Notes under the pieces: model-generated
What the model saw: the letters and a program-made list of their open reading frames with translations, nothing else
What the model was told of the DNA's origin: nothing
Databases searched by the model: none
Shown: positions 19,298 to 30,579 of the stretch, one piece after another
Numbering within the stretch: position 1 is the stretch's first letter
Layout: every line of letters starts with the position of its first letter
Translations under genes and position numbers: made by a program
NCBI RefSeq assembly: GCF_009192735.1
Contig: NZ_VTFU01000001.1
Coordinates: 372,001-436,000 of the forward strand
From: Arthrobacter gandavensis
Lineage (GTDB): Bacteria; Actinomycetota; Actinomycetes; Actinomycetales; Micrococcaceae
Length of the DNA: 64,000 bases
Reading direction: 5' to 3'

Positions 19298-21136
19298 GTG
19301 AGAACAAGCAGAATCGTCATGCTGGTCATTGGAAGCCTGCTGATCCTCATCGGGTTGGGACTGGCGGCTGGCGCAGCCGTGGCGGGAGTGCTGAACGCGC
19401 GGCAGGGCGATGACCAATTCTTGTCCCTGCCGGAGGGCGTTTACGGGGTGGACACGTACGCCATCACGACGCCGGAAATCGAAGTCGGCCCGGGAGTGCA
19501 GGCCGGGGACGCGGTCGGAACACTGCAGATCCAGGGCCGCCCGACCGACGACAGGGAACTGTTCATCGGCATCGGTCCCGAAGCGGCGGTGGAGCGGTAC
19601 CTCCTGGATGTGCAGCACAGCGAGCTGCAGGAGGTCTCTTTCGACCCATTCCGCGCCTACTACGAGGAACGGCAGGGCGGCGCTCCCGACGGGCTTCCCT
19701 CCGATCAGGACTTCTGGGCTTCCAGCACCAGCGGCAGCGGTGAACAGTCCCTGGAATGGAGCCCGGAGGACGGCGACTGGACCGTCGTGGTGATGAACGC
19801 GGACGGCAGCAGGCCGGTGTCGGCCGAGCTGCAGATCGGTGCCCGCACGGATTTGCTGGGACCGCTGACGTGGATACTGCTGATCAGCAGCATCGTGCTG
19901 CTTGTAGCCGGCATCGGGCTTGCGGTAGCCGGCGCCGCGGGTCTGCGGCGGCGTTCGGTGGGGCCGGGAGGTCCCTACGGGAGTTACTCCTCAGCCGGAC
20001 TGCCGGGGCAGCCGGGAGGTCCGGCGGACGCCGGACCGGGTCCTGCCGGCTCCGGGGCGGGTGCGGGTCCTGCTGCCAGCCCGGGTGTGGGGCCGCAGTC
20101 CGCTTCCGGGCAGCCGGCCGGAACACCGCAGACGTACGGACAGATGCAGGACAGGTACGGCCGGGAACAGCGGTCGACGGCGGAGGGCGCCGGTTTCGGT
20201 GGCCGGTCCGGTGCCGCCGGGGCCGGAGCCGCCGCCGGGGCTGCGGCCGGAGCGGCCGGGGCATCAGGTGCGCGGGTGCCCGGATCCGCAACGACGAGTG
20301 CATCCGGGGCAACCGCCGTCGGGGTCAAGGACCCGGGACTGATGGGACCACGCTATCCCGCCCGGCTCTATGGCGAGCTGGATCCGGACGTGTCGCGCTG
20401 GATGTGGCTGGTGAAGTGGTTTCTCGCCATTCCGCACTACATCGTGCTTTTTTTCCTGTGGATTGCCTTCTTTGTCTCCACAGTGATTGCCGGGATTGTC
20501 ATCCTGTTCACCGGGCGATATCCGCGCGGCATCTTTGACTTCAACGTCGGAGTGGTGCGGTGGAGCTGGCGGGTGACGTTCTACGCCACCCGAGTGTTGG
20601 GGACCGACCGCTACCCGCCGTTCACGCTGGAACGGACCGACTATCCCGCGGATTTCAGCGTCGACTATCCGCGGCAGCTCTCACGCTGGCTGGTGCTCGT
20701 GAAATGGTGGCTGCTGATAATTCCGCAGGCGCTGGTGGTCAGTGCGATCACTGAAGCAACGCTTGTTGTCAACCGGTTCTGGGGCGTCGGCGGCCCGGGA
20801 GAAATGGAGAACGAAGGCTGGACCCGGTGGGGCCCAGGCATGTGGCAGGACTGGGATGAAGGTTGGACCGACGGCGTGTACACCACAGTGAGCCGGCAGG
20901 GTCTGTCCCTGCTGGGGCTGCTGGTCCTCATTGCGGCCGCCATACTGCTGTTTACCGGACGCTACCCGCGCCAGTTGTTCAACCTGCTCATGGGACTGAA
21001 CCGCTGGACGTACCGTGTCCTTGCCTATGGGGCCCTGATGCGCGACGAATACCCGCCATTCCGGCTCGATCAGGGTCCGGCGGACCGCAGGGATGAGGAT
21101 GCGGGCCTCGGGCGGCCCGGTCCAGACAGAGGTTAG
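19298..21136 (+). CDS. DUF4389 membrane protein with Gly/Ala-rich linker
   Basis: A 612-residue integral membrane protein starting at GTG. An N-terminal membrane segment (about 5-28) is followed by a roughly 150-residue extracytoplasmic region, a second membrane segment (about 190-212), a long Gly/Ala/Pro/Ser linker (about 220-345) and two DUF4389 repeats, each with paired hydrophobic segments and the motif LFTGRYPRxxF. The first repeat begins PARLYGELDPDVSRWMWLVKWF. DUF4389 function is unknown. No ribosome site is seen; TAGGGC lies six bases before the GTG, so a leaderless start is possible. Its stop TAG opens a 17-bp tandem array. Confidence 0.85.
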   Translation: MRTSRIVMLVIGSLLILIGLGLAAGAAVAGVLNARQGDDQFLSLPEGVYGVDTYAITTPEIEVGPGVQAGDAVGTLQIQGRPTDDRELFIGIGPEAAVERYLLDVQHSELQEVSFDPFRAYYEERQGGAPDGLPSDQDFWASSTSGSGEQSLEWSPEDGDWTVVVMNADGSRPVSAELQIGARTDLLGPLTWILLISSIVLLVAGIGLAVAGAAGLRRRSVGPGGPYGSYSSAGLPGQPGGPADAGPGPAGSGAGAGPAASPGVGPQSASGQPAGTPQTYGQMQDRYGREQRSTAEGAGFGGRSGAAGAGAAAGAAAGAAGASGARVPGSATTSASGATAVGVKDPGLMGPRYPARLYGELDPDVSRWMWLVKWFLAIPHYIVLFFLWIAFFVSTVIAGIVILFTGRYPRGIFDFNVGVVRWSWRVTFYATRVLGTDRYPPFTLERTDYPADFSVDYPRQLSRWLVLVKWWLLIIPQALVVSAITEATLVVNRFWGVGGPGEMENEGWTRWGPGMWQDWDEGWTDGVYTTVSRQGLSLLGLLVLIAAAILLFTGRYPRQLFNLLMGLNRWTYRVLAYGALMRDEYPPFRLDQGPADRRDEDAGLGRPGPDRG

Positions 21137-21218
21137 ACGGAAGAAGACGCTAGACAGGAAAAGACTCTAGACAGGAAAAGACTCTAGACAGGAAAAGACG
21201 CTAGGCGGGAACAGACAC
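21134..21218 (+). repeat. 17-bp tandem array of five units, each beginning with TAG
   Basis: Five contiguous 17-bp units start at 21134, 21151, 21168, 21185 and 21202, all beginning TAG; the first TAG is the stop codon of the DUF4389 gene. Units two and three are identical (tagacaggaaaagactc). Because 17 is not divisible by three, the array places TAG in all three forward frames. Confidence 0.92.
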
Positions 21219-21654: not shown

Positions 21655-21805
21655 AACGGGGGCTCCTGAGCCGGGTTGGCGAAAGTTCGCCAAAACTAGC
21701 ACCGGGCCGGGGTCAGGGTAAAGATGCGGCACGCCGCGGATGTGGAAGGCGGAACATGATGTGCCTGCGGGATGGCAGACTGCTTGCACCAAGGGGGAGG
21801 GAACG

Positions 21806-23320
21806 ATGGGTGAGGCAGGGGGAAAACGGCCGGCCCGGGTCCGGCTGCGGCAGAATCCGGCGTTCGTACGGTTCTGGCTGGCTTCAACCGTGTCCGATTT
21901 CGGCACGTACATCACCACTCTGGCGGTATCTGTCCTGATTTTGGTGACTATGGACGGCACGGCCCTGGACCAAGGCCTGGTCAATGCCGCGCGGTGGGCG
22001 CCATACCTGCTCTTTGGCCTTGCGGCAGGGATTTGGGTGGACCGGTTTCCCCGCCGCACCGTCCTGGTTGCCGGAGACCTGGGAAGAGGGCTGATCCTCG
22101 CCGCGGTCTGCGCAGCCGCAGCCGCGGGATTCCTGACGGCGCCGTGGCTGATGATCCTCATGTTTGCCTTTGGCACGCTTGCCCTGACCAGCGACGCCGC
22201 CTATCAGAGCCTCCTTCCCCGGCTGGTTCCACGGCCGCTTCTGACGCAGGCGAATGCGAGGCTCCAGCAAAGTGACACGGTGGCCCAAACCACCGGAAGC
22301 GCTGCAGCGGGAGGATTGGTGGCTCTGGTCAGTGCGCCCTTTGCGCTTCTGGTGGACGCCGCGTCGTATCTGTTGTCCGCGGTGATACTGCTGGCTCTCA
22401 AACCGGAGGCCAGGCAGGAGCCGGAGGCCAGGCAGGAGCCGGACGCCGGGCAGGAACAGGACGCCGGGCAGAGGAACGGTCCGGACCCTGCGAAGGACCG
22501 CTTCCTTTTTCGGGCTGCCGAGGGCCTGCGCTGGGTTTACGGCCACCCGTACCTGGCACCGATGGCCCTGAGCACCCACATTTGGTTCATCGGCTCCGCG
22601 GTGTTGGGGGCCGTCCTGCCGGCGGTGATTCTGAAGGACCTTGGAATGGGACCGGCGGGCCTGGGGCTCGTCCTGGGATGCGCCGGTGTGGGAGCGGTCA
22701 TTGGCACCACGTTCTCCGCCAGGCTGGGGTCGCGGTGGGGAACGGGCCGGACGATCATTGCCGCACGGGTCATTCAACCGGCGGCGATTGCCCTGGTGGC
22801 CCTGGCGCCGCTTGCCGCCGGAGGGCACGGACCGGGCGGATCCCTCCCGGAGTGGCGGCCCGAGCTGTGGTGGGCCCTGGCCCTGGCGGGCGGCGGGCAG
22901 CTGCTGTTCGGTGCGGCGATGGGGCTCGAAGGCCCGCTGGAAATGGGCTACCGGCAGGCCGTGACGCCGGACCGGCTGTTGGCTCGAATGAGCGCCACCA
23001 TGCGGTCCGCGAACCGGGGGATGATTGTCCTTGGAGCACCGTTGGGCGGACTGATTGCCGCTGCCGCCGGGGCTGGTACCGCATTGTGGGCCTCCTGCGG
23101 CCTGCTGCTGCTGGCCGCCGTCGTGCTGGTGTTCTCCCGGTTCCGGTACGCCGGGGAAGACCAGTACCTGACGGGCGAACCGTCCGGACAGGCAGGACCG
23201 GCAGGCAGGCAGGACCGTCAGGACAGGCAGGACCGTCAGGACAGGCAGGACCGGCAGGGTAGTGGCTGCTCAAGGAGCCGGCAACGCCGTCGGTGGCGCG
23301 GGTGTTTTCCCTCACCGTAA
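21806..23320 (+). CDS. MFS transporter (multidrug-efflux type)
   Basis: A 504-residue major facilitator with about twelve hydrophobic segments, starting at the ATG after AAGGGGGAGGG. The N-terminal NPAFVRFWLASTVSDFGTYITTLAV and GIWVDRFPRRTVLVAGDLGRG (loop 2-3) match the MFS_3/enterobactin-exporter-like group. The central cytoplasmic loop holds four 18-bp repeats (22403-22474, PEARQE-type) and the C-terminal tail is a run of QDR repeats followed by a basic Cys/Arg-rich end that looks non-native. It is divergent from the VOC gene and could share its promoter region. The substrate is unknown. Confidence 0.87.
   Translation: MGEAGGKRPARVRLRQNPAFVRFWLASTVSDFGTYITTLAVSVLILVTMDGTALDQGLVNAARWAPYLLFGLAAGIWVDRFPRRTVLVAGDLGRGLILAAVCAAAAAGFLTAPWLMILMFAFGTLALTSDAAYQSLLPRLVPRPLLTQANARLQQSDTVAQTTGSAAAGGLVALVSAPFALLVDAASYLLSAVILLALKPEARQEPEARQEPDAGQEQDAGQRNGPDPAKDRFLFRAAEGLRWVYGHPYLAPMALSTHIWFIGSAVLGAVLPAVILKDLGMGPAGLGLVLGCAGVGAVIGTTFSARLGSRWGTGRTIIAARVIQPAAIALVALAPLAAGGHGPGGSLPEWRPELWWALALAGGGQLLFGAAMGLEGPLEMGYRQAVTPDRLLARMSATMRSANRGMIVLGAPLGGLIAAAAGAGTALWASCGLLLLAAVVLVFSRFRYAGEDQYLTGEPSGQAGPAGRQDRQDRQDRQDRQDRQGSGCSRSRQRRRWRGCFPSP
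22403..22474 (+). repeat. 18-bp coding repeat in the MFS central loop
   Basis: Four 18-bp units encode PEARQE, PEARQE, PDAGQE and QDAGQR at residues 200-223. The first two units are identical. The unit length and Gln/Arg/Ala content match the acyl-CoA synthetase array. Confidence 0.88.
23189..23260 (+). repeat. 9/18-bp coding repeat in the MFS C-terminal tail
   Basis: Alternating caggaccgt and caggacagg units encode consecutive QDR triplets shortly before the stop. The sequence after the array (Ser/Cys/Arg-rich) shows no resemblance to MFS C-termini. Confidence 0.82.
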
Positions 23321-23879: not shown

Positions 23880-24047
23880 TTTCCCCTCTCGAGAGCGTGC
23901 AGACAGCCGCAGGGAGGTCAGGGGAACCGGTGCCGTGGAATACTTCATGGCAGCAGCAACGCCCATGACTGAAGCCCGGTAATGACGGCGGTTCGGTACC
24001 GAACCAAGGAGCCGGCCGCCCGAATACCGGACTGGAACGGAGCCTGC

Positions 24048-25100
24048 ATGCCCGAATCCCCAACCCGTCTTGGAGTTGACTCGCTGATTGGCGAGTGGCT
24101 CGACCATCCCACCGGGCGCACCGTCCTTATTGACGTGCTGGCACGCCGCAGTCCGGACGCCCGGGCGCTTTACGCCATGCGGATGCTGCCGCTTTCCTCA
24201 CTGGTGACACTCAGCAATGGTGTCGTGACACCGGAACACCTCAATCTCCTGGTGCAGGCCGCCAACAAGCTCACCGATGTTCCGTCGGAGCGTCCAGCCA
24301 CGGGCCATCTCTTTCCCTCGGCCCCGCCTCCTGCACCCAATGACTGGGAGGAGCCCATCATTGAGGGCCGCTTCCGCGGCAAGACCGTGGTGGTGTCAGG
24401 GGCATCATCCGGGATCGGGCGGGCCGTCGTGCTGCGCGTGGCCCGGGAAGGCGCCCACGTCCTGGCCATCGATCTCAGCACCCTGCGGATGGAAGCACTG
24501 TTGGAGAAGAACCCGGAGCTGGACATTACCGGCGTGGTGGCTGATATTTCCAACCAGGAGGACGTCAACAAAATCGCCGTCCAGGCCCGCGGCAGGGTGG
24601 ACGGACTTGCAGTGGTTGCCGGAATTGCCGACGACATGGTGGCCCTTCACGAGGTGCAAGACGAGCTGTGGGAGTCCGTCTTCAGGATCAACGTTGACGG
24701 ACCGTTCCGGCTGTCCCGGGCGATCATCCCGCTGATGCTTTCCCGCGGCACCGGGTCGATTGTGAATGTCTCCTCACAGGCAGGTCTCCGCGGTTCCATT
24801 GCGGGAGCCGCCTACACGGCGTCCAAGCATGCCGTGATCGGCCTGACCCGCAGCGCCGCGTTCATTTACAGTCCGCGCGGCATCCGCGTTAACGCTGTTA
24901 TTCCGCGGCCCACCCGTTCCGCCCTGGAATCAAACTACGGCTCGCTCGGCGGTGCCGGCCCGCTCCCGGCGCCGGCGTTCACCTCCCCGGAGATCGAGTC
25001 GGCGCAGATCGCCTCACCCATGGCCTACCTGCTGAGCGACGACGCCGCTAACGTCACCGGCGCCATCATGCCCGCTGACGAAGGCTGGGGTGTGGCCTGA
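24048..25100 (+). CDS. SDR-family oxidoreductase with an extra N-terminal module
   Basis: A 350-residue protein. Residues 111 to the end are a classical short-chain dehydrogenase with GASSGIG (118-124), a VNVSSQAG serine strand and the catalytic AYTASK. Residues 11-74 form a separate helical module (SLIGEWLDHPTGRTVL ... MLPLSSL ... GVVTPEHLNLL) that resembles the C-terminal module of the convergent GH3 beta-glucosidase next door. A Pro-rich linker joins the two parts. The ATG at 24048 has CGGAG just upstream; an ATG at 23982 in frame is the alternative. The role may be oxidation of a sugar or aglycone released by the glucosidase, which is inference from adjacency. Confidence 0.82.
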   Translation: MPESPTRLGVDSLIGEWLDHPTGRTVLIDVLARRSPDARALYAMRMLPLSSLVTLSNGVVTPEHLNLLVQAANKLTDVPSERPATGHLFPSAPPPAPNDWEEPIIEGRFRGKTVVVSGASSGIGRAVVLRVAREGAHVLAIDLSTLRMEALLEKNPELDITGVVADISNQEDVNKIAVQARGRVDGLAVVAGIADDMVALHEVQDELWESVFRINVDGPFRLSRAIIPLMLSRGTGSIVNVSSQAGLRGSIAGAAYTASKHAVIGLTRSAAFIYSPRGIRVNAVIPRPTRSALESNYGSLGGAGPLPAPAFTSPEIESAQIASPMAYLLSDDAANVTGAIMPADEGWGVA

Positions 25101-25194
25101 GCGGTGGAGCTGTCCATCGATGGAGGGGGGACCGGCCCATCGGTAAGAAACAATGGACCGGTGGAGAGGCGCGGCGGCGAGCCGGATTGCCGGC

Positions 25195-27726
25195 CTAGGT
25201 GCCGTTGCGTGACCTCAGCTCGGCTTCAAGCTGCTTCAGCAGTTCGGGCGTGACCGGACTGCCGGGGAACCGGGCCAGCCGGTTCAGCGGCATATTGCCC
25301 ACCAGTGCCAGGGATGCCGCGAGCTGGGCCGCGTCGGGAGCCCCACCGCTTGACTCGGGCGCCCCACCGTTCGACTCGGGAGCCCCACCGCTTGACTCGG
25401 GAGCCCCACCGTTCGACTCGGGAGCCCCACCGCTTGACTCGGGAGCCCCACCGTTCGACTCGGGAGCCCCGCCGCTTGACTCGGGAGCCCCACCGTTCGA
25501 CTCGGGAGCCCCGGCGCTTGACTCGGGAGCCCCGCCCGGGCCCGCCCCGCCGCTTGGCTCGCTGCCCGCACCGGCACCGGTCATTGCCGACACGAGGGCG
25601 GCAGCAGCCTCCGGATCCGCCATCCACTCCTCAAGGGTGGACGCGATGCCCAGGACGGGAGGGGGAATCGTGCCATCCAATGCAGCGACTCCCGCCACCC
25701 TGATATCCCGGGACGAAGCCTCCACTTCCAGGCGGTATTCCCCGGCGTCCGCCACCCAGGAGCCGGTTCCGGGTTCATAACGGGACAGCGAACGGACGTC
25801 GAGGCGAAACTCCACGCGCCGGGACTCGCCCGGTTCCAGCGGCACCTTTTCAAAGCCGCGCAGTTCACGCCGCGGGTGCAGCGGCCGTTGCTGACCGCCG
25901 TCGTCCCCTTCAGGGGCACCGGAATAGAGCTGGACCACCTCGCTGCCGGACCGGTCGCCGGTATTGGTCAGCGTGAGCTCAACGTGGACCAGCTGGTCGG
26001 CACCGGAACCATCCACGCGCACGTGAAGATCCGAGTACGAGAAGGTGGTGTACGTGTACCCGTGCCCGAACGGGTAGGCCACTTCCAGGCCGCGGGTGTC
26101 ATACCAGCGGTAACCCACCAGCAGGCCCTCCCCGTACCGCACCGTTCCGCCTTCACCGGGGTAGTTGCCGTAGGCGGGAGTGTCCTCGAGCCGCAGCGGA
26201 ACGGTTTCAGCCAACCGCCCGCCGGGCTCCTCCCGGCCCAGCAGCACGTCGGCGATGGCGCTTCCGCCCGCCTCGCCGGGAAGCCAGACCTCCAGGACCG
26301 CCGGGACGGAGGCCGCCCATCCCATGCTCACCACGCCTCCGTTGGCGAGCACGACAACCGTCCGCGGATTCGCTTCGGTGACGGCGGTGAGCAGTTCCAA
26401 TTGGGCATCGGGCAGATCCAGCGTTGTCCGGTCAAAACCTTCGGATTCGGCGGCGTCGGGCAGGCCCAGGAAGACGACGGCGGTGTCGGCCGCGGCCGCG
26501 GCTGCAGCAGCCATCTCGGCCAGGTCTTCCCCGGCGCACGGCGAATCCTCGGACAGGACATATCCGGGTTCAAACAGCAGCCCGGGCACCATCTCCTGCA
26601 GCGCATCGAGCGGCGTGACCAGCTGCACCGGATTCACCCGGGAGGATCCACTGCCCTGATACCGGGGTGTGCGGGCCAATTCGCCGATCACCGCCAAGGT
26701 GCCTCCGGACGTTAGGGGAAGGATGCCGCCGTCGTTCTGCAGGAGCACCATGGACGCGGCAGCGGCCCGGCGGGCCAGTTCGTGATGGGCAGCGTAGTCC
26801 GCCGAACCGCCGGCGGATCCTGCACCGGACGCCGCGGCGGAGTCTGCGCCGGCACCGGAACGTGCCGAAGCACGGCGCACCAGTGCCAGGATCCGTTCCA
26901 CGGACTGGTCCACCTGTTCCTGCGTCACTGTGCCCGCATCCAGCCCGGCAGCCAGCTCCCGGGTGCCAAGGCCTCCACTGGAGGGCATTTCCAGATCAAG
27001 GCCCGCGGTGAGTGCCGCTGCCCGGTCGGTCACAGCGCCCCAGTCCGAAACCACGACGCCATCGTAGCCCCACGTGTCCCGCAGCACGGTTCCCAACAGC
27101 CAGGGGTTCTCCGCGGCGTGAAGCCCGTTCACCTTGTTGTAGGCGGCCATGATGGTCCACGGTCCGGCCGTGCGGACCACCGTCTCGAAAGCACGCAGGT
27201 AGATTTCATGCAGGGTCCGCTGATCCACCACCGCATCCACCCGCATCCGGTCCGCTTCCTGGTTGTTCGCGGCGAAATGCTTGGGGCTCGCACCAACCCC
27301 CTCGGCCTGGACCGCAGCCGTCCACGCTGCGCCGAGTTCACCGGCGAGCAGCGGATCCTCGGAGAAATACTCGAAGTTGCGCCCGCACAGCGGTGTGCGC
27401 TTGATGTTCAGGCCCGGTCCCAGCAGGATATCGACACCCTGTGCGCGTGCCTCCTGCGCGGCGGCGGTCCCCAATTCGGCGAGCAGGCCGCGGTCCCAGG
27501 ACGACGCCGTCGCGCATTCCGCCGGAAAACAGGTGGCCGGCACCGAATCGCCCAGCCCCGTCCCTCCGCCGTCGCCGGCCGGACGCCGGACGCCGTGCGG
27601 CCCGTCGGCGAGGACCAGAGCGCGGATGCCGTGCGATGGAAGGGAGACCGTTTCCCAGAATCCGGCCCCTGACAGCAAACTGAGTTTTTCATCCATGCTT
27701 AGGTCCGGCAGGGCTGGAATCTCCAC
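25195..27726 (-). CDS. glycoside hydrolase family 3 beta-glucosidase
   Basis: An 843-residue GH3 enzyme starting at a GTG with GAGGAGG five bases upstream; an in-frame ATG at 27828 has no such site. The nucleophile is D228 in YDGVVVSDWG, and KHFAANNQE and DGPHGVRR are family motifs. The (alpha/beta)6 domain, a fibronectin-III-like domain (around 560-660) and a C-terminal helical module (from about 696) follow in order. The module is split by nine copies of APES[S/N]GG. No signal peptide is seen, so it acts in the cytoplasm on imported beta-glucosides. It diverges from the UbiB-like gene. Confidence 0.92.
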   Translation of the reverse strand: MEIPALPDLSMDEKLSLLSGAGFWETVSLPSHGIRALVLADGPHGVRRPAGDGGGTGLGDSVPATCFPAECATASSWDRGLLAELGTAAAQEARAQGVDILLGPGLNIKRTPLCGRNFEYFSEDPLLAGELGAAWTAAVQAEGVGASPKHFAANNQEADRMRVDAVVDQRTLHEIYLRAFETVVRTAGPWTIMAAYNKVNGLHAAENPWLLGTVLRDTWGYDGVVVSDWGAVTDRAAALTAGLDLEMPSSGGLGTRELAAGLDAGTVTQEQVDQSVERILALVRRASARSGAGADSAAASGAGSAGGSADYAAHHELARRAAAASMVLLQNDGGILPLTSGGTLAVIGELARTPRYQGSGSSRVNPVQLVTPLDALQEMVPGLLFEPGYVLSEDSPCAGEDLAEMAAAAAAAADTAVVFLGLPDAAESEGFDRTTLDLPDAQLELLTAVTEANPRTVVVLANGGVVSMGWAASVPAVLEVWLPGEAGGSAIADVLLGREEPGGRLAETVPLRLEDTPAYGNYPGEGGTVRYGEGLLVGYRWYDTRGLEVAYPFGHGYTYTTFSYSDLHVRVDGSGADQLVHVELTLTNTGDRSGSEVVQLYSGAPEGDDGGQQRPLHPRRELRGFEKVPLEPGESRRVEFRLDVRSLSRYEPGTGSWVADAGEYRLEVEASSRDIRVAGVAALDGTIPPPVLGIASTLEEWMADPEAAAALVSAMTGAGAGSEPSGGAGPGGAPESSAGAPESNGGAPESSGGAPESNGGAPESSGGAPESNGGAPESSGGAPESNGGAPESSGGAPDAAQLAASLALVGNMPLNRLARFPGSPVTPELLKQLEAELRSRNGT
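25334..25530 (-). repeat. 21/42-bp coding minisatellite in the GH3 gene
   Basis: Nine 21-bp units, alternating in a 42-bp higher-order period, encode APESSGG and APESNGG heptapeptides. The array lies between the EWMADP half and the GNMPLNRL half of the C-terminal module. The near-identity of units indicates recent expansion or homogenisation. Confidence 0.93.
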
Positions 27727-30453: not shown

Positions 30454-30579
30454 TTACTGTCTGTACTGCTGCTGGTACTACTGCTGGTACTACTGCTGTT
30501 GTTGCTGTTGCTGTTGCTGTTGCTGCTGTTCTTGCTTCTGCTGTTACTGTTGCTGCTGTTCTTGCTTCTGCTGTTACTG
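30454..30579 (-). repeat. CAG/CAA repeat tract spanning the glutaminase stop codon
   Basis: Read leftward in the glsA frame, the Gln codon before the stop, the stop TAA (30576-30574) and the following bases form a tract of CAG, CAA, AAG and GAA codons interrupted only by TAA (30546-30544), TAG (30492-30490, 30480-30478) and a final TAA (30456-30454). A 30-bp unit is perfectly duplicated (30520-30549 and 30550-30579), each copy including one TAA. The TAA/TAG triplets are one transition away from CAA/CAG. Confidence 0.93.

Follow-up and report, generated by a model that had tools for sequence, protein, structure and literature searches.

In cellulosomes, many carbohydrate enzymes of unrelated families bear one small module, that of the dockerin/cohesin system, and carbohydrate-binding modules are non-catalytic accessory modules found at either end of glycosidases. 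Glucuronidases also carry accessory domains. PMC8748916 describes their C-terminal domains as mobile and unresolved, with a length of about 150 residues, and that of Rh3, an FMN-binding gut β-glucuronidase (7KGZ), as critical for triclosan-glucuronide processing, with its critical motifs stated as undefined. According to PMC9377255, the C-terminal domains of such glucuronidases flank the active site in models.

We analyzed a 64,000-nucleotide stretch of Arthrobacter gandavensis DNA (the window), in which an SDR oxidoreductase gene and a GH3 glycosidase gene are convergent and lie 94 bp apart. We found that the N terminus of the SDR and the C terminus of the GH3 carry modules of about 70 residues that are, with near certainty, homologous. 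A profile of this module matches Rh3 over its full length at the extreme C terminus (7kgz, residues 653 to 731; E, 5e-7). As in the window GH3, the match is a tail on a glycosidase, reported as mobile in PMC8748916; unlike it, Rh3 is a GH2-type host, such domains are given there as about 150 residues, and the role reported there is substrate processing and not enzyme association. Other glucuronidases matched weakly and partially (6mvg, E of 0.29; 6mvh, E of 1.7). The profile also matches the C terminus of a closely related GH3, β-glucosidase B (7MS2, residues 679 to 752; E, 1e-7), whose loop, unlike that of the window GH3, holds no repeat array, and the C-terminal segments of 8J9F and 5WAB match weakly. 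For at least one gut glucuronidase that binds FMN, the module supplies an identity for the C-terminal domain.

The SDR and GH3 genes of the window

The features of the locus are collected in Table 1. Judged from the N termini of homologues, the SDR gene appears to start at the ATG at 24048. The product is a classical SDR (adh_short, 162.3 bits versus a gathering score of 26.6), and its neighbor belongs to glycoside hydrolase family 3 (N- and C-domain models, 134.7 and 186.9 bits versus gathering scores of 27 and 31). In an NCBIfam scan, for which only whole proteins served as queries, the GH3 fell below the cutoff of the exo-α-(1->6)-L-arabinopyranosidase model NF041610 (777.9 versus 1300 bits) and the SDR below that of glucose 1-dehydrogenase NF005559 (141.5 versus 215 bits); the SDR passed 0 of 25 cutoffs among the matches listed. 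A copy of the module may lie within the GH3 model NF041610 itself, which has 738 positions and was aligned up to 684. Among plasmid sequences, the 12 best matches of the GH3 were 48 to 55% identical and came from genera that we take to be actinobacterial.

Table 1. Coordinates of the SDR and GH3 genes and their module segments in the window
Feature	Position	Strand	Basis
SDR oxidoreductase gene	23982..25100	+	Pfam adh_short 1.3e-47, aa 134-318
SDR N-terminal helical module	24069..24275	+	aa 30-98 counted from 23982; profile match 89.6 bits; hhalign to GH3 module; predicted helices
Variable linker, module to Rossmann domain of SDR	24276..24368	+	Sequence and homologues; SDR-domain matches begin near aa 130-134
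GH3 glycosidase gene, 877 aa	25195..27828	-	Pfam Glyco_hydro_3, Glyco_hydro_3_C, Fn3-like
GH3 C-terminal module, first half (aa 726-750; helices 1 and 2)	25579..25653	-	Module profile 20.7 bits
Tandem array of 21/42-bp coding APES repeats, loop between helices 2 and 3	25334..25533	-	TRF
GH3 C-terminal module, second half (aa 832-877; helices 3-5)	25198..25335	-	Module profile 36 bits

Homology of the SDR and GH3 modules

The original prediction of a shared helical module was borne out by profile comparison and by AlphaFold models. All six motifs on which it was based are in place: EWLDHP (24093), MLPLSSL (24183), and VTPEHLNLL (24225) in the SDR and, on the minus strand, EWMADP (25629), NMPLNRL (25296), and VTPELLKQL (25254) in the GH3. 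The APES array does divide the GH3 copy, as had been claimed; its 21-bp unit recurs 9.5 times (98% match at period 42), and the array was not seen in the linkers of the GH3 relatives inspected.

By themselves, the two module sequences were not significantly similar by BLASTP (E, 0.048). We aligned a profile of 26 SDR rows with one of 26 GH3 rows, each kept from 30 after duplicate removal, and obtained a match (98.7%; E, 4e-16; score, 80.8) that takes in 69 of 69 SDR columns. Left out of the profiles were the SDRs of L014 and L019, in which no module pattern was found, and the GH3s of L053, L054, and L060, which the text pattern missed; the module is visible by eye in L053 and L054. By comparison, column shuffling of the GH3 profile gave at best 20.6 in 300 trials, and its reversal gave 21.2. 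Along the real GH3 alignment (27 rows), 22 of the 25 windows compared with the SDR modules lay outside the module and scored 7.7 to 18.5, and the three that reached it scored 55 to 87. The GH3 modules of a separate alignment, A6 minus the window row (mostly Bacillota), scored 71 against the SDR modules. That the likeness reflects chance or composition, as between two amphipathic helical tails, would suit the nonsignificant result for the two sequences alone. However, neither the 300 shuffles nor the 22 real nonmodule windows yielded more than about a quarter of the profile score, and the module aligns in register over its whole length. We consider chance similarity ruled out by these controls, with a negligible probability left to it.

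The module has a consensus of roughly TIxEWLAHPxGxxLL... PLxxLvxfsgg... eexLeeLv and five short helices. In AlphaFold models, the five helices follow the same order in both copies, which also share a break at the (H/D)P motif. The helices are predicted at residues 10-19, 21-34, 38-46, 49-55, and 62-76 of the SDR module (single-sequence prediction; mean pLDDT, 64) and at 13-18, 20-36, 114-125, 129-133, and 142-155 of the GH3 module (35 of 62 alignment rows used). The GH3 model has a pLDDT of 91 to 93 over residues 11 to 30, and its APES array is a low-confidence loop (pLDDT, about 50). No PDB chain came back when the GH3 module model was searched for similar folds, perhaps owing to the disordered array; a search with the SDR module model reached a Z of 3.4 or less among 24 chains, and 7ms2 was not recovered.

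Pfam gave no name for the module in searches with both whole proteins and 16 module sequences; the latter had no significant match and none at an E of ≤10. DUF1858 and ScdA_N are small helical domains, and neither was matched by the 16 sequences at that threshold; the fold searches yielded few chains at most. No dockerin or carbohydrate-binding module was among the matches listed for the SDR or GH3 (E ≤ 1) or for the 16 sequences (E ≤ 10). Carbohydrate-binding modules differ from the present one, which is all helical in models, is about 70 residues long, and is also found on a dehydrogenase and as standalone open reading frames (ORFs). The shared module was not described in the full-text literature searched, a weak negative, since subscription journals are mostly outside its coverage.

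Distribution and gene neighborhoods of the module

The original prediction placed the shared module on two enzymes encoded side by side. The sharing held, but the restriction to two adjacent enzymes did not: the module occurs on nine or more kinds of protein, mostly enzymes of glycoside breakdown, and a module private to the SDR/GH3 pair is ruled out by the many other module-bearing proteins found. Its hosts are GH3, GH78, GH2, GH43, a DUF5060/apiosidase-like hydrolase, an esterase, a sulfatase-like protein, and a GH65-like protein (assigned by subthreshold likeness), and it is also carried by two SDR clades and by short standalone ORFs. It sits at either end of unrelated host families, joined by variable linkers, in Actinomycetota, the lineage of the window, and in Bacillota. 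Unnamed in the libraries searched and borne by many kinds of glycoside-degrading enzyme, it offers a handle on why such enzymes cluster and how intermediates might be shared.

In two host families, the module is present in some members and absent from close homologues. The module of the 806-residue GH65-like protein begins at residue 732. Matches to this protein were found in 14 of 149 genomes, and in the 13 other genomes among these 14 they extend no farther than residue 685 to 735. P0002 and its close Bacillota relatives make up a set of seven SDRs, and the module is present in two of them, both clustered with module-bearing enzymes; the SDRs of L300, L301, L302, and L303 were judged from open-frame lengths. 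The catalytic domains of the Paenibacillus and window-lineage SDRs are just 33 to 42% identical. The tree of these domains, which had many weak branches and long-branch warnings and from which L260 4420-5226 was left out (motif missing), was used for identities alone; a label test on it gave no evidence of clustering (251 of 500 shuffles were as low).

The module stands on consecutive genes at several loci: GH3, GH65-like, and SDR genes at L090; esterase, GH3, and SDR genes at L252; and a GH43 and two GH3 genes at L131. In Paenibacillus nanensis, a GH3 gene adjoins a module-SDR gene with an 8-nt overlap, and this SDR passes the glucose 1-dehydrogenase cutoff (229.8 versus 215). A standalone module ORF of 71 residues begins 2 nt past a gluconokinase gene whose product passes its family cutoff. 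The gluconokinase step would come after glucose oxidation.

Co-occurrence in other SDR/GH3 neighbors was found, as in P. nanensis, but each module-bearing enzyme was also seen without the other. SDRs of the window type (61% identity or more) are encoded by 11 genes in 29 genomes of the genus; 10 of these are convergent with a GH3 gene, within about 0.8 kb of the GH3 match, and in 2 of the 10 pairs the SDR gene has a one-base deletion. Ten genomes of the genus have a module-GH3 (62 to 65% identity) without a window-type SDR and have a second, more distant SDR elsewhere. A module-SDR gene was the sole module gene detected in five genomes (G006, G017, G025, G466, and G715); module tallies per genome are lower bounds, with at most 14, 24, and 30 candidates scored per genome in the successive scans. 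No GH3 match was found in the three of the five examined. Thus, the SDR-GH3 pairing is not obligatory: some genomes keep the module-SDR although no such GH3 was detected in them, and others keep the module-GH3 without a window-type SDR. Among 80 GH3 loci (mostly Bacillota), 77 have the module and 5 have a second module gene within the stretch examined, a count that is partly circular, as modules from those loci had gone into the type II profile. At L207, an SDR without the module lies in a cluster whose GH78 and GH3 bear it.

Possible functions of the module

The module may help its host enzymes work together or grip their substrates. Our leading, though tentative, explanation is that the homologous, unnamed accessory module of the SDR and GH3 is a mobile docking element that gathers glycoside-degrading enzymes. 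The host enzymes are presumably cytosolic, and the module would be a mobile protein-interaction element that, through self-association or a common partner, would hold enzymes of one glycoside-degradation pathway together. In the window, it would place the sugar-releasing GH3 beside an SDR that could oxidize the released sugar or aglycone. We favor docking because the module is homologous, with the same helix order, on unrelated hosts and at either end; because it lies on consecutive genes at L090, L252, and L131; because it is present or absent within the GH65-like and Bacillota SDR families; and because a standalone module ORF directly follows the gluconokinase gene. The gene clustering is confounded as support, because glycosidase genes cluster anyway, and not every genome offers a partner bearing the module, as the five genomes in which only the module-SDR was detected indicate. 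The scarcity of a second module gene at the GH3 loci and the module-free SDR of L207 were counted against docking.

Docking is preferred to the idea that the module helps each enzyme hold small plant or drug glycosides, either as a mobile lid or clamp on the active site of its host or by binding hydrophobic aglycones; we regard this idea as possible but rather unlikely. The Rh3 match and the majority of glycosidases among the hosts are consistent with a clamp, and a domain critical for one substrate and flanking the active site, as reported in PMC8748916 and PMC9377255, is more in keeping with a lid than with a docking tag. However, a glycosidase lid would not be expected to occur standalone or on SDRs, and a single lid would need to suit many unrelated folds from either terminus. 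Less likely still is that the module serves self-oligomerization or stability of each host, as in SDR tetramers or GH dimers, with no link between enzymes. Genomes with no module gene detected other than that of the SDR, and GH3s that keep the module irrespective of a window-type SDR next door would suit this, but by itself it leaves the module on consecutive genes and the standalone copies unexplained.

Binding of the two enzymes to one another or to a scaffold, possibly with channeling, was suggested by the original prediction and would fit several operon contexts. That the SDR and GH3 of the window bind each other through the module and channel glucose is nevertheless improbable. The convergent pairs, the overlapping genes of P. 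nanensis, and the glucose 1-dehydrogenase score of its SDR argue for it; each enzyme occurring with the module in the absence of the other, the one-base deletions, and the failure of the window SDR to pass any NCBIfam cutoff among the matches listed argue against it.

If the docking explanation holds, the module would work much as dockerin does, although no scaffold protein is known for the module hosts. It is an unlikely but broader prospect that the module assembles a soluble, intracellular counterpart of the cellulosome, in which glycosidases, an esterase, a sulfatase-like protein, sugar dehydrogenases, and standalone connectors would strip and oxidize plant glycosides, and that at least some drug-reactivating FMN-binding gut glucuronidases would be built on the same module. 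The identity of the module in the Rh3 domain makes the question of its critical motifs directly testable by alignment-guided mutation. An aglycone-binding module would be the counterpart of a carbohydrate-binding module for the nonsugar half of the substrate.

A helical module common to the SDR and the GH3 glucosidase

The original prediction held that the convergent SDR and GH3 genes encode one small helical module, at the N-terminus of the SDR and at the C-terminus of the glucosidase. We found all six motifs it had quoted at the positions given for them. By BLASTP, the two proteins matched with an E value of 0.048, which is not significant. We then searched 59 related genomes for homologues of both genes, excised the module, and aligned the SDR and GH3 copies separately (26 rows each). 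Profile-profile comparison of the two alignments gave 98.7 % and a score of 80.8, with 69/69 SDR columns aligned. This is significant, as the best of 300 column shuffles scored 20.6 and the reversed profile 21.2. As a control on real protein, we slid the SDR module along a 27-row GH3 alignment: the 22 windows outside the module scored 7.7 to 18.5 and the three reaching it scored 55 to 87. The SDR profile also scored 71 against 35 GH3 modules, mostly from Bacillota (alignment A6).

Genes and tandem repeats in the window
Feature	Coordinates	Strand	Remarks
17-bp array	21134-21216		4.9 copies; at the very end of an upstream ORF
MFS transporter gene	21740-23320		upstream; contains both 18-bp arrays
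18-bp array	22403-22471
18-bp array	23179-23258
SDR gene	23982-25100	+	likely start 24048
GH3 gene	27828-25195	-	convergent with SDR gene, 94 bp between
CTG-rich 30-bp array	30463-30579

Pfam places the start of the SDR domain at about residue 131 and extends the GH3 N-, C-, and Fn3-like domains to residue 706; it has no match in the SDR N-terminus or the GH3 C-terminus. The SDR fell below all NCBIfam cut-offs among the 25 models listed. AlphaFold predicted helices at 10-19, 21-34, 38-46, 49-55, and 62-76 of the SDR module from the single sequence (mean pLDDT, 64) and at 13-18, 20-36, 114-125, 129-133, and 142-155 of the GH3 C-terminus, for which 35 additional rows were supplied. The GH3 module parts reached pLDDT 81-93 per ten-residue block, and the array of APES repeats about 50. 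Helix order and spacing agree between the two predictions, and in the GH3 model the APES array is inserted into the loop that joins helices 2 and 3. The same loop varies among the relatives inspected, where it is often rich in Gly and Ala, and the array was not seen in it. Fold searches gave no PDB chain for the GH3 module model and a Z of 3.4 or less among 24 chains for the SDR module model. We concluded that the module observed in the SDR and the GH3 protein stands.

The window is rich in tandem repeats, the APES array included; the two 18-bp arrays of the transporter gene encode EARQEP-like and QDRQDR-like repeats.

Spread of the module among enzymes

In the window's own genome, the module profile found three proteins: the SDR, the GH3 protein, and a second SDR elsewhere. 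Matches occurred in at least 107/248 genomes of the order, at least 29/197 of the family, and at least 17/396 of the phylum sample. A search with a beta-glucosidase B stretch yielded 80 GH3 loci, 77 of them carrying the module. The loci come mostly from Bacillota but include Thermotogota and a few further metagenome records. A further, more diverged set, termed type II, matched the first by profile (alignments A2 and A4, 96.6 %), and a larger type II set, A5, matched the SDR and GH3 modules at 95.4-98.1 %.

Pfam or NCBIfam named hosts as SDR, GH3, GH2, GH78, and GH43, the last with the module at either end, and also as BD-FAE/abhydrolase esterase and DUF5060-apiosidase-like-DUF5605 hydrolase. 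A sulfatase-like host (L289, G398:C1:2391905-2392084), with the module near its C-terminus, scores below its family cut-offs. An 806-residue host (L090 8542-10962, genome G398) has no Pfam or NCBIfam match beyond a sub-threshold likeness to GH65 phosphorylases. One GH3 protein of Evansella caseinilytica (L184 6414-8972) ends in a tandem of two different modules, and two short ORFs, L122 and L123, look standalone. Restricting the module to a single SDR/GH3 pair was thus too narrow, since many other enzyme types carry it. It is one homologous helical module, joined to many enzymes by variable linkers at either end.

Among 16 type I module sequences (the first set), none had a Pfam match better than E 0.05. 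In the PDB, the module profile matched residues 679-752 of the GH3 beta-glucosidase 7ms2 (E 1e-7) and residues 653-731 of 7kgz (E 5e-7); the matches to 6mvg and 6mvh were weak. A GH3 architecture with PA14 and Fn3 has been described (PMC9426481), and the passages considered from PMC6327262 and PMC12291295 contain nothing on such a C-terminal domain. In the libraries and papers searched, the module is an accessory domain without a name, of a general kind already known.

Module genes as neighbours

Module genes lie side by side in several loci, and the module is present or absent within host families. Three are consecutive in L090 (GH3, GH65-like, SDR) and in L252 of Paenibacillus nanensis (esterase, GH3, SDR, where the GH3 and SDR genes share 8 nt). 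In Paenibacillus sp. SY21-1 (L253, L254), a module SDR and GH78 adjoin, with esterase and GH3 about 8 to 10 kb further, and L131 has a GH43 and two GH3 proteins, all with the module. A second module gene was found in 5/80 loci of the beta-glucosidase B search.

Within the genus, 11/29 genomes have a window-type SDR (at least 61 % identity), and in 10 of these a convergent GH3 gene lies no more than about 0.8 kb away; G005, the remaining one, gave no GH3 match. Two of the ten pairs (L010 in G001 and L011 in G021) share an identical one-base deletion near SDR codon 247, which puts the module and first half out of frame with the second half; apart from the deletion, both halves show good conservation, and each gene has an adjacent GH3 match. 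Ten genus genomes have a module-GH3 (62-65 % identity) with no window-type SDR and only a more distant SDR elsewhere. Each partner also occurs with the module where the other was not found, which speaks against a simple pair. In G006, G017, G025, G466, and G715, the SDR was the sole protein detected with the type I profile, and away from it the type II profile gave only a weak G025 fragment (E 0.046, 24 positions). Thus, within search sensitivity, the SDRs of these five genomes seem to retain the module with no second enzyme that bears it.

Relatives of the GH65-like protein turned up in 13 other genomes (14/149 matched). Their longest matches stop at residue 685-735 and the module begins at 732, so the search places it on the G398 proteins alone, one of which is encoded in an operon whose other enzymes carry the module. 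The window's genome holds a relative of this protein (G000:C4:587512-589623), whose match extends to residue 697; such proteins have about 700-800 residues.

For the Paenibacillus SDR P0002, 32 genomes yielded seven close relatives, with P0002 itself among them. Two have the module, and both cluster with other enzymes that bear it. In the remaining five, the match begins only at residue 88-99 and is preceded by no more than 48 residues of open frame, too short for a module (one N-terminus was read). One of the five (L207, G670) lies in a cluster that includes module-bearing GH78 and GH3, so the correlation between module and cluster is imperfect. Paenibacillus and the window's lineage may have gained the module separately, as their SDR catalytic domains are only 33-42 % identical.

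Possible role of the module

We tentatively propose that the module may dock glycoside-degrading enzymes to one another. As an interaction element, it would keep them together in the cytosol, on the assumption that the hosts are not exported. Its strongest rival, that the module is a lid or aglycone clamp, seems somewhat less likely to us and is favoured by glucuronidase data. PMC8748916 names 7kgz as the FMN-binding glucuronidase Rh3 and reports that the enzyme depends critically on its C-terminal domain to process triclosan-glucuronide, that such domains were still mobile and unresolved in structures as of 2022, and that the critical motifs are undefined. Likewise, the passages used from PMC9377255 have the glucuronidase C-terminal domain flanking the active site, as the most variable part among AlphaFold models and not previously resolved in a crystal. 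That the module is a self-oligomerisation element is improbable.

A glucosidase-SDR-gluconokinase series would fit glucose release followed by oxidation and gluconate phosphorylation; the three were never seen together in one locus. The standalone 71-residue module ORF of L122 (6542-6754) starts 2 nt behind a gluconokinase gene (TIGR01313, 176.4 bits against a cut-off of 113.75). This ORF is a natural isolated copy of the module, suited to structural work.
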